A DNA stretch of 64,000 bases from Halobacillus sp. Marseille-Q1614 (GTDB lineage Bacteria > Bacillota > Bacilli > Bacillales > Halobacillaceae), in the NCBI RefSeq assembly GCF_902809865.1, contig NZ_CADDWH010000001.1, forward strand, positions 3,410,001-3,474,000, written 5' to 3'. Shown in pieces: positions 4,060-64,000 of this stretch (position 1 is its first letter; every line of letters starts with the position of its first letter). Position numbers and translations under genes: made by a program. Below the pieces are notes generated by a model. That model was not told the DNA's origin. It ran no database searches and saw only the letters and a program-made list of their open reading frames with translations.

Positions 4060-5319
4060 ATGAAAAAACGGTTTATGATCGGCCTGTTTATCTTATTTCC
4101 TATATACATTCTGCTCGTTTATTTATATTTATTCCATTGGACGACGCCTGGCGTTCCTGAAGCCTATCAGGGATCGGCAGCAGATCCGGCGACATTTATG
4201 ACGGGTGAGGAAATCGCGCTCAGCCAGGAATATTCAAGGTATCGGAATTTGCTTTTCTTCATTGGGCTGCCGCTTGAATTATTAATATATCTGGGGATTC
4301 TTGTTTTCGGCTGGTCTCCTGTATTTAAACAATTCGGTGAAAAAATCTCTCGTTTTTCTTTCATCAACATTCCTATTTACGTGCTGGTGCTTTCAACAGT
4401 GGTATATTTGATCAGCTTCCCGCTCGATTATATCGGCTACCGGCTGTCTTCCGCTTACGGCATTTCAACGCAAACCTTTTCAAGCTGGATGAGGGATGAA
4501 CTAATCAGCTTCTGGATTGGGTTTATCGTTATGGCTGTTTTAGTCACGGTCCTTTATCTGCTGATTAGAAAAGCTGCTAAGAGATGGTGGCTGTACGCAT
4601 GGGGGCTGCTAATTCCATTTTTCGCTTTTATGATGTATATCCAGCCCGTAGTAATCGATCCTTTATATAACGATTTTTCAGAGCTGCAGGATGCGGAGCT
4701 TGAAACGAAGATCCTGGCGTTAGCTGAAGAAGCGAACGTGCCGGCGGATCGTGTATATGAAGTCAATATGTCGGAAAAAACGAACAGCATGAACGCCTAT
4801 GTAAATGGGATAGGAGATAACCTGCGTATCGTTTTATGGGATACGACGCTAAACCGTTTAGATGACACGGAAACCCTTTTTATAATGGCTCATGAGATTG
4901 GTCACTACGTCATGAACCACCTGTACATGAATTTAACGGGCGTTATTTTCGCAAGCTTTATCGGCCTCTATTTGACATATCGGCTTTTACTTAAAGTGGT
5001 ACGGAAATGGGGAAATGATTTCGGAGTGAAAAGCGTGTCTGAGGTGTCTTCTCTGCCTGTTCTCTTGGTGCTGCTGTCTGCTATATCGATCGCGGCGACT
5101 CCTGTAGAACTGATGATTTCTCGGCAGGCGGAAAAGGCGGCTGACGAGTATGCGATTGAAATGACGGGTGATAGGGAAGCTGCGATTGGTTCCTTTCAAC
5201 AGCTGACGATTAACGGGCTTAGTGATGTGAATCCGCCGCTGCTCGTGAAATGGTTCCGTTACGGTCATCCGACGATGATGGAGAGGATTCATATGCTTGA
5301 GGAATACGAAGAAGAATAA
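4060..5319 (+). CDS. yhfN: M48 family zinc metalloprotease, Ste24/CAAX-protease type (YhfN-like), 419 aa
   Basis: Integral membrane zinc protease of the Ste24 branch of M48, close in length and layout to B. subtilis YhfN. The zinc site is HEIGH at residues 278-282, with the third ligand Glu358 in EKAADEYA, as in Ste24p. Hydrophobic segments lie near residues 5-25, 60-85, 100-120, 148-170, 180-200, 295-315 and 325-350. In bacteria these enzymes do not process prenylated proteins; roles in membrane protein quality control are presumed. The ATG at 4060 follows GAGGGGGAAGG. It is a single gene, ended by the terminator at 5321 and flanked by inverted repeats A and B. Confidence 0.92.
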   Translation: MKKRFMIGLFILFPIYILLVYLYLFHWTTPGVPEAYQGSAADPATFMTGEEIALSQEYSRYRNLLFFIGLPLELLIYLGILVFGWSPVFKQFGEKISRFSFINIPIYVLVLSTVVYLISFPLDYIGYRLSSAYGISTQTFSSWMRDELISFWIGFIVMAVLVTVLYLLIRKAAKRWWLYAWGLLIPFFAFMMYIQPVVIDPLYNDFSELQDAELETKILALAEEANVPADRVYEVNMSEKTNSMNAYVNGIGDNLRIVLWDTTLNRLDDTETLFIMAHEIGHYVMNHLYMNLTGVIFASFIGLYLTYRLLLKVVRKWGNDFGVKSVSEVSSLPVLLVLLSAISIAATPVELMISRQAEKAADEYAIEMTGDREAAIGSFQQLTINGLSDVNPPLLVKWFRYGHPTMMERIHMLEEYEEE

Positions 5320-62114: not shown

Positions 62115-63311
62115 ATGACCAAAGAAACCGTTTTAAAAATAAAGCAAAAGCAGGCCGATAAATATCACAAAGGCTATCCGCTAATCTCTGCGAGTGCAGT
62201 AGCAGACAGCAGACCGCTGCAAAAAGAAGGCCAGATTATTAAGCTGACAGATGAAAGAGGGAAGTTTATCGGCCGCGGGTATTATGGCAATCAAAATAAA
62301 GGGCTCGGCTGGGTGCTGACGCAGAAAGAAGATGTATTCATAGACCAGAAATTCTTTGATCAGGCGATTCAAACGGCTCTCAACTATAGAAAAAAGCTTT
62401 TTAAAGACCCTGAAACAACTGCTTTTCGAGTTTTTAACGGAGAAGGCGATGGGGCAGGGGGGCTTACGATTGATTATTTTGATGGCTATTACTTAATCAA
62501 TTGGTATAGTGAAGGGGTTTATTCTTTCCGTTCCTTTGTCCTTCATTCTCTAGAGCAGCTGGTGGATTATAAAGCGATTTATGAGAAGAAACGCTTTGGC
62601 AAGCAGGGGCAGTATATCGATGATGATGAGTTTGTCGCAGGCGAGAGAGGGGATTTCCCTATCATAGTTAAAGAGAATGACGTTCAGTTTGCGGTTTACC
62701 TTAATGAAGGCGCGATGGTAGGCGTTTTTCTTGATCAGCGCGAAGTAAGGAAAAGAATCCGAGACTATTATTCTGAAGGGAAGAGGGTGCTAAATACTTT
62801 CTCCTACACAGGAGCTTTCTCCCTCTTTTCAGCTCTTGGTGGAGCCTCTCACACCACCAGCGTAGACCTTGCTAATCGCAGCTATGCCAAGACTATAGAG
62901 AACTTCAGCTTAAACGGCATTGATTATGAAGCACATGATATCATTGTGGAAGATGTCTTTAAGTACTATAAATACGCGAATCGTAAGCAATTAAGCTTTG
63001 ACTTAGTTATTCTCGATCCCCCAAGCTTTGCTAGGGCTAAGAAAACTACCTTTAGGGCAGAGAAAGACTACACAGAGCTCCTAAAGCAGACTATTTCTAT
63101 TACTGAATGGAACGGGACAATCATTGCTTCCACCAACTGCAGTAAATTCAATATGAAGAAATTCAAAAGCTTTGTTGATCGCGCTTTTAAGGAAAGCGGA
63201 CATCAATATACTATATTAGAAGAATTCTCTCTCCCTCATGATTTCAGGACCATCTCTTCATTTCCAGAAGGAAATTATCTAAAAGTCATATTTATTAGAA
63301 AATCTAGTTAA
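62115..63311 (+). CDS. Class I SAM-dependent rRNA large-subunit methyltransferase (RlmI/RlmK-like, YwbD-type)
   Basis: 398 aa. N-terminal PUA domain (residues about 1-75: GHPLI-like KGYPLISASAV, IGRGYYGNQNKGLGW), then an RlmI-like middle domain (VFNGEGDGAGGLTIDYFDGY) and a Rossmann methyltransferase with SAM motif NTFSYTGAFSLFSALGGA and catalytic-loop DLVILDPPSFAR. C5-methylcytosine modification of 23S rRNA is the activity of E. coli RlmI; the exact base here is not known. ATG behind AGGAGGT. Confidence 0.9.
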   Translation: MTKETVLKIKQKQADKYHKGYPLISASAVADSRPLQKEGQIIKLTDERGKFIGRGYYGNQNKGLGWVLTQKEDVFIDQKFFDQAIQTALNYRKKLFKDPETTAFRVFNGEGDGAGGLTIDYFDGYYLINWYSEGVYSFRSFVLHSLEQLVDYKAIYEKKRFGKQGQYIDDDEFVAGERGDFPIIVKENDVQFAVYLNEGAMVGVFLDQREVRKRIRDYYSEGKRVLNTFSYTGAFSLFSALGGASHTTSVDLANRSYAKTIENFSLNGIDYEAHDIIVEDVFKYYKYANRKQLSFDLVILDPPSFARAKKTTFRAEKDYTELLKQTISITEWNGTIIASTNCSKFNMKKFKSFVDRAFKESGHQYTILEEFSLPHDFRTISSFPEGNYLKVIFIRKSS

Positions 63312-63342
63312 TGAGCTGCATTTTTGCAGCTCATTTTTTTAT
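63311..63342 (+). terminator. Terminator after the methyltransferase
   Basis: ATGAGCTGCA (63311-63320) pairs perfectly with TGCAGCTCAT (63325-63334), followed by TTTTTTT. Confidence 0.9.
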
Positions 63343-63369: not shown

Positions 63370-63575
63370 TATTGTTTGCAAATTAGTATACTTGTTTACA
63401 ATTATGTACTCTTGTACACGCTATTGGATGCAATTGCACTCAGTTTTGTATACTTGAAAACAAAAATGTACGCATATTGATATATAAGCATGTGTACGTA
63501 TTTGTTTACAAGTATACAAAAACCGTAGAAATGTAAACGAAAAATGTAAAATTGTATGCAAATACGAATACGTAA
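63370..63575. repeat. Iterated AT-rich repeat array, centromere-like (parC-like) candidate
   Basis: The motif AGTATACTTGTTTACA (63385-63400) recurs as TTTTGTATACTTGAAAACA (63444-63462) and inverted as TGTTTACAAGTATACAAAA (63503-63521). Between and after them lie TGTACTCTTGTACA, ATGTACGCATAT, ATGTGTACGTATT, and two ATGTAAA copies (63530 and 63544). The block is non-coding, directly upstream of a ParM-like gene. In ParMRC and Alp systems the ParR-binding centromere sits exactly there and is built of such iterons. Confidence 0.6.
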
Positions 63576-63584
63576 ATAGTCACA

Positions 63585-63613
63585 TTGACTTATGGGGTCT
63601 GATCTAATATGTT
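63585..63613 (+). promoter_or_regulatory. Promoter of the ParM-like gene
   Basis: TTGACT (63585-63590), 17-base spacer, TATGTT (63608-63613), between the repeat array and the AAAGGAGAG ribosome site. Confidence 0.6.
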
Positions 63614-63669
63614 TAATAGTAGAGCTAGCAAAACTAGCAAATCTTTCTATTAAAGGAGAGCTTATCAAA

Positions 63670-64000
63670 ATGACAAGAACAAGAATTGCTGCAGTTGACG
63701 TGGGGAATGACGCAGTAAAAGCGAATTTTGGAAAATTAGAATCTGAACTATATATTCCTAATGTAATCGCCAGAGATTTAGAAGACCGTCCAGTTATAGG
63801 TATTGAAGACTTAGATGAGAAGGAGCCGATTGATAACCTACATATCCGCGTTCATTCTCCTGCCTTAAAGGAAAATAACGCAATTTACCGTGTAGGAAAC
63901 CTGGCCGCTAAAAGTGATAATTCTACAGAATTGGATCCAGGAAGCAGTAAATCTGAAGAAGATCAGACACTGATTATGCTGTTTGCCTCTATTGCATTAG
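63670..64000 (+). CDS. ParM/StbA-type actin-like protein, N-terminal 110 residues (runs off the window end)
   Basis: Actin-superfamily ATPase that polymerises into filaments to move DNA in plasmid segregation. ATG at 63670 behind AAAGGAGAG. The phosphate-1 loop VDVGNDAVKA is at residues 9-18 (DxGNxxxK as in ParM, Alp7A and AlfA), followed by YIPNVIARDL and the YRVGNLAAKS block, both typical of the ALP_N domain. Phosphate-2 and adenosine motifs lie outside the window. A chromosomal relative, an integrated element, or a plasmid-derived cassette are all possible; the downstream ParR-like adaptor cannot be seen. Confidence 0.82.
   Translation, partial: MTRTRIAAVDVGNDAVKANFGKLESELYIPNVIARDLEDRPVIGIEDLDEKEPIDNLHIRVHSPALKENNAIYRVGNLAAKSDNSTELDPGSSKSEEDQTLIMLFASIAL

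Follow-up and report, generated by a model that had tools for sequence, protein, structure and literature searches.

Segregation by actin-type (ParMRC) systems is regarded as a plasmid device. Chromosomal pairs, the cParMRs, are known in Desulfitobacterium, Clostridium botulinum, Moorella, Bacillus tropicus and others (PMC12270681, JBC 2025). The cParMs of Desulfitobacterium and C. botulinum polymerise, Cb-cParR binds its own cparC in vitro, and conservation in several Bacillus species has been described with the function left open (PMC12270681). According to the same 2025 paper, no part in chromosome segregation has so far been shown for ParCMR (PMC12270681). While chromosomal ParMs themselves were already reported in 2025, in the open literature, of which coverage was partial, no paper was found that describes the distribution and fixed position of the class-wide, origin-linked cassette presented here.

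The window, i.e. the whole stretch of DNA analysed, comprises 64,000 nucleotides of the 3.98 Mb genome of Halobacillus sp. Marseille-Q1614 (G000:C1:3410001-3474000); coordinates given for L003 become window coordinates by adding 50000. The cassette at its right end is composed of an array, a promoter, a ribosome-binding site, a parM-like actin gene, a parR-like gene and a terminator, in this order. Its left border is a terminator-like hairpin belonging to the SAM methyltransferase gene that precedes it (63310..63335, + strand; 11-pair stem and T tail). The parC-like iteron array follows at 63380..63567 (no strand assigned) with approximately eight 20-bp units, recognised by a weight matrix and by the upstream arrays of relatives. 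Downstream are a likely sigma-A type promoter TTGACT-17-TATGTT (63585..63613, + strand), found by consensus scan and with a similar stretch in relatives, and the ribosome-binding site AAAGGAG (63652..63658, + strand), read from the sequence 11 bp 5' of the ATG. Consensus scans for promoters score near chance here (8 found vs 5.6 +/- 2.6 in shuffles), and this promoter is plausible, the surrounding stretch looking conserved in relatives. The actin gene (P0001, 392 aa, + strand) occupies 63670..64000 with its first 331 bp and continues to L003:14848; the parR-like gene (P0002, 191 aa) is found at L003:14858-15433 and its terminator at L003:15439-15470.

A preliminary description had named an array, a promoter and an ALP_N actin in this region, and all three are at the places it gave. 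Its AGTATACTTGTTTACA-type units are found direct at 63385 and 63448 and inverted at 63503, and the array is present, the proposed limits of 63370-63575 being slightly too wide. It had also read the whole as a ParMRC/Alp layout, to be abandoned if no small DNA-binding gene followed or if relatives keeping the actin gene had no array. The predicted small gene of DNA-binding type is present directly downstream, 9 bp beyond the actin stop codon, and every relative examined retains the array, so that neither objection applies and the layout was correctly recognised.

P0001 is an actin-fold NTPase of the ParM/Alp group: it matches the domains ALP_N (E=4.4e-9) and Alp7A_like_C (E=1.2e-35) and the PHROG 691 'partition protein' (E=1.6e-40), and the nucleotide-binding motifs DVGND..K, DIGGLSTD and GGG are invariant in the actin alignment, whose mean column identity is 86%. 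The closest named genome by actin is that of Halobacillus massiliensis (97% identical), and dN/dS is ~0.015 against the nearest named relative, to which the estimate is restricted since synonymous sites are saturated beyond it. The AlphaFold model (pLDDT 44) is too poor to read the ParM-type closed beta-barrel subdomain. The actin profile search of the PDB returned no match at E<=0.01, and sequence and profile searches gave marginal matches only, the best being Dh-cParM1 (E=0.05).

The same genome encodes a second, diverged Alp-type actin (P0003, 28% identical; L005:8776-9963, - strand, at ~2.54 Mb of G000:C1) with a partner gene for 127 aa (L005:8389-8769), and this pair adjoins DUF7852-type proteins resembling spore-coat proteins. 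As second matches, at ~28-31%, are present in many genomes of the family, P0003 and its partner may be another conserved chromosomal actin pair.

Comparison of P0002 with 31 relatives shows a conserved N-terminal half (ERGQ[S/A]ITFR[V/L]PSDTPDH...), a variable acidic linker in the middle and, encoded in the last 15 codons, a C-terminal peptide, D-LG[D/G]F[L/F]--MNK, which is almost invariant and ends mostly in MNK. A strand-helix-helix is predicted at 14-56, in an order that would fit a ribbon-helix-helix; the AlphaFold model is of low confidence (pLDDT 55). No Pfam, NCBIfam or PHROGs family was matched at a meaningful E-value, and the PDB gave no match. The identification of P0002 as a ParR is one of anatomy and context, not of profile match, and both suit it: a putative DNA-binding head, a flexible tail and a short, presumably actin-binding end make up an anatomy fitting ParR, and the gene adjoins the actin gene, with a gap of 5-19 bp, in 80/80 loci of the best 80 among 446 relatives. 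Across the order, the genomes that have it are precisely the 148 with the strong actin match, and it is immediately adjacent in 148/148. Two kinds of candidate short actin-binding motif are seen when plasmid relatives are included, D-LG[D/G]F[L/F]--MNK in the chromosomal proteins and NFAKxTFLNFDDDD or similar in those of plasmids.

The unit of the array is GTATACATGTATACAAWWWT, with two half-sites separated by 8 bp and a period of ~20-21 bp, as described by a 20-bp weight matrix. The half-sites are GTNNAC pairs (GTATAC-type), and with this period the units are roughly helically phased. The matrix was learned from 75 loci of other species, and the window and five loci held out from it also score. 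In the window 14 strand matches fall within 63380-63567 against 11 in the other ~63.8 kb, where there is never more than one per 250 bp. An array of 3-8 sites is found 5' of the actin gene in every one of the best 80 loci among the 446, the site density elsewhere in these loci being 0.096 per kb, and exact TGTNNACA half-sites average 4.5 per locus in 81 loci versus 0.38 in dinucleotide shuffles. Repeats of 20 bp are also what the ParR of pSK41 binds (PMC9426499).

Within its own genome 5 of the 21 matches to the unit pattern are inside the array, there is no second cluster, and the total stays below the control count. Where tested, there is a single array cluster per chromosome: in 26 genomes from 18 genera, this one included, the sites cluster at the cassette only, and the possibility of centromere sites scattered over the chromosome was rejected on these grounds. 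A possible central spacer separating the two arms of the array, CATATTGATATATAAGCATGTG (63472..63493, + strand), is a weak feature, matching at 19/22 positions a spacer recurrent in many relatives; the claim of a conserved central spacer was dropped because shuffled controls score too often. Genome G051 carries two complete arrays flanking its parMR operon (L149:2657-2775 and 4785-4904), the second downstream of parR and away from the parMR promoter, with an exact parS site ~3-4 kb away.

The place of the array directly 5' of the promoter would also be that of an operator, and it is conceivable that it is nothing else, the small protein autoregulating the operon while the actin does a chromosome-independent job such as cell shape or protein positioning. 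The closest plasmid relatives, with few half-sites beside or overlapping the promoter, agree with this. However, about eight 20-bp iterons over ~190 bp are much longer than a simple operator needs, the array ends ~20 bp 5' of the -35 box, G051 has its second array on the far side of parR, and the fixed origin-proximal location and strand described below would not be expected for a diffusible function. We consider an operator-only role rather unlikely.

Orthologs of the actin were detected in all 11 genomes of the genus, in 40 of the 44 genomes of the family sample (85-100% identity; G037, of the same sample, has a 41% relative only) and in 148 of 299 genomes across the order (74-100% identity). 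In these 299 genomes the orthologs are set apart by a gap, the next actin matches being at <=42%. Orthologs of 76-79% identity also occur in the families f49 and f72 of the class. Among named genomes, 446 stretches with a gene for a relative of the query were found; represented in the best 80 are, among others, Halobacillus, Virgibacillus, Oceanobacillus, Lentibacillus, Metabacillus, Peribacillus, Mesobacillus, Fictibacillus, Pseudalkalibacillus and Sporosarcina. The Bacillus subtilis control genome gave no ALP_N match and, as about half of the order is likewise without it, the cassette is not universally required. In the tree the chromosomal actins are apart from four plasmid sequences and grouped largely by genus, in a topology whose root placement is unreliable owing to the long plasmid branches. 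The cassette is vertically inherited in Bacilli and is neither a plasmid remnant nor a prophage or an island.

A ParMRC layout is typical of plasmids, and the preliminary description had proposed, among other readings, an integrated element or the edge of a prophage. The cassette is on the main 3.9-Mb contig with ordinary chromosomal flanks (M20 peptidase, luciferase-like monooxygenase, SAM methyltransferase, HxlR regulator, two-component system, cytochrome oxidase); no integrase was recognised among the ORFs listed for ~10 kb of upstream and ~14 kb of downstream sequence, nor were linked replication, integration or phage genes among those listed around the cassette. Phage records contain weak actin fragments of 23-24% only. 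On the order-wide vertical distribution, the flanks and the plasmid actins, which are at most 44% identical, a mobile element or prophage was rejected, and an integrated plasmid, conjugative element or prophage edge can be given hardly any weight.

The position of the cassette relative to the origin is conserved. In 30/30 measurable genomes it is found left of dnaA at a distance of 36-327 kb (median 94 kb) and, again in 30/30, on the strand opposite to dnaA, a combination which makes it co-directional with replication on that arm; in the Halobacillus genome the distance is 259 kb. The flanking genes vary, the best-conserved neighbour being common to only 19 of 81 loci. By comparison, 27 genomes have the adjacent methyltransferase gene, and in 9 of these it is either distant from dnaA, by hundreds of kb and up to ~2 Mb, or on the opposite arm. 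All these counts come from genomes which are not phylogenetically independent, and the origin-proximal position may in part be due to slow rearrangement of an ancestral location. All 16 genomes tested have exact parS sites, most of which share the origin region with the cassette, some being less than 10 kb from it (G051, G208, G297). ParABS is therefore probably present alongside the cassette.

We think it probable that the cassette is a chromosomal ParMRC system, vertical in Bacilli and fixed near the origin, with ParR binding the array and actin filaments acting on the origin region. Filament formation, binding of ParR to parC and the cellular role are what we infer from the sequences. The ribbon-helix-helix-like protein would form a helically phased complex on the iterons upstream, its conserved peptide D-LG[D/G]F[L/F]--MNK at the C-terminus would dock on the end of the actin filament, and nucleotide-driven filament growth would push, pull or anchor the origin-proximal left arm. 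Bound beside the promoter, ParR could also autoregulate the operon, and the whole cassette would act beside ParABS and not as its replacement. Near-invariance of the cassette across the group, even though it is absent from B. subtilis, suggests an actin motor acting on the chromosome itself. Of the proposals in the preliminary description, that of a chromosomal system of actin filaments is supported, its new cargo being likely the origin-proximal chromosome region.

Sporulation could be the process which this machinery serves, for instance by capture or anchoring of the origin at the pole in asymmetric division, a reading which overlaps with a chromosomal ParMRC. The cassette was found in 0/12 genomes without spoIVA as against 148/287 with spoIVA (Fisher p=4e-4), and part of the losses are in families f1, f13 and f25, whose spore-formers often keep it. 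On the other hand, the 12 spoIVA-less genomes are smallish and come from few lineages, so that independence is poor, 139 spore-formers are also without the cassette, and the promoter resembles the vegetative type. With so few lineages on one side and so many spore-formers without it on the other, the link is only a hint: a sporulation-specific machine is somewhat unlikely, while a chromosomal ParMRC whose role matters most in sporulation is possible, if faintly indicated.

Taken further, the chromosomal ParMRC reading leads to a possible centromere of the chromosome that is driven by actin: in many Bacilli, ParM-type filaments would move or tether one origin-proximal parC. Beside ParABS-SMC there would thus be a second engine for segregation or positioning, which may matter most at forespore chromosome capture and is absent from B. 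subtilis and asporogenous lineages. We advance this tentatively and with more doubt than the chromosomal ParMRC system as such. A near-invariant ParMRC fixed beside oriC in roughly one half of the genomes sampled from the order, yet missing from B. subtilis, would have escaped work in that model. Whether actin filaments can segregate the chromosome of a bacterium becomes a question for direct test, with a single array as the defined site, defined proteins and numerous hosts that are harmless and culturable.

Among known systems the plasmid ParMR pairs of pBM69 (B. methanolicus), Paenibacillus pHD05, the 45-kb plasmids of polymyxa and the 25-27 kb plasmids of B. subtilis have actins of the same family, with 41-44% identity over 93-94%. 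Their related ParR-like gene is adjacent as well (26-41% over the N-terminal half), its product being shorter than P0002 and different in its C-terminal motif. Most have similar GTATAC half-sites, yet only few of them; in L139, L140 and L142 (pBM69, pHD05 and a plasmid of B. subtilis MH-1) GTATAC-type half-sites are beside or overlapping the promoters. With similar half-sites on host and plasmids, cross-talk between their ParR proteins is conceivable.

Since related ParMR pairs and half-sites similar to GTATAC are in use on plasmids of these hosts, the cassette might be a captured plasmid-type par locus kept against or with incoming plasmids, through incompatibility or anti-plasmid interference. 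In Bacillus, Peribacillus, Paenibacillus and Pseudalkalibacillus, plasmids encode actins of 41-44% identity next to a related ParR, and most of the plasmid loci read have half-sites of a similar kind upstream. In C. perfringens plasmids ParR-parC specificity sets incompatibility (PMC9426499). Defence, however, predicts patchy presence and fast change, whereas the actin is nearly invariant and its position fixed, and the tails of plasmid ParR proteins (NFAKxTFLNFDDDD) differ. We regard such a captured locus as very improbable and retain the chromosomal ParMRC.

Less close are two other actin systems. Alp7A/Alp7R of the B. subtilis plasmid pLS20 resembles P0001 by domain match only, through the Pfam domain Alp7A_like_C noted above, and Alp7A is plasmid-borne, unlike the chromosomal P0001. 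AlpAC of the Corynebacterium prophage CGP3 reportedly serves viral DNA transport (PMC4446434, PMC5539076); it shares with the cassette an actin-like protein and a DNA-binding adaptor on specific DNA sites in a chromosome-resident element, and differs in its prophage function and its unrelated lineage and sites.

The cParMRs are like the cassette described here in having a ParM-type actin and an adjacent ParR-like gene on the chromosome, and in being highly conserved within a genus. The present cassette differs in that its conservation extends through many families of the class. For the clostridial cParMRs no conserved cparC was found, while here a parC-type array is conserved with the genes, and the range of distance from oriC, the arm and the strand are fixed.
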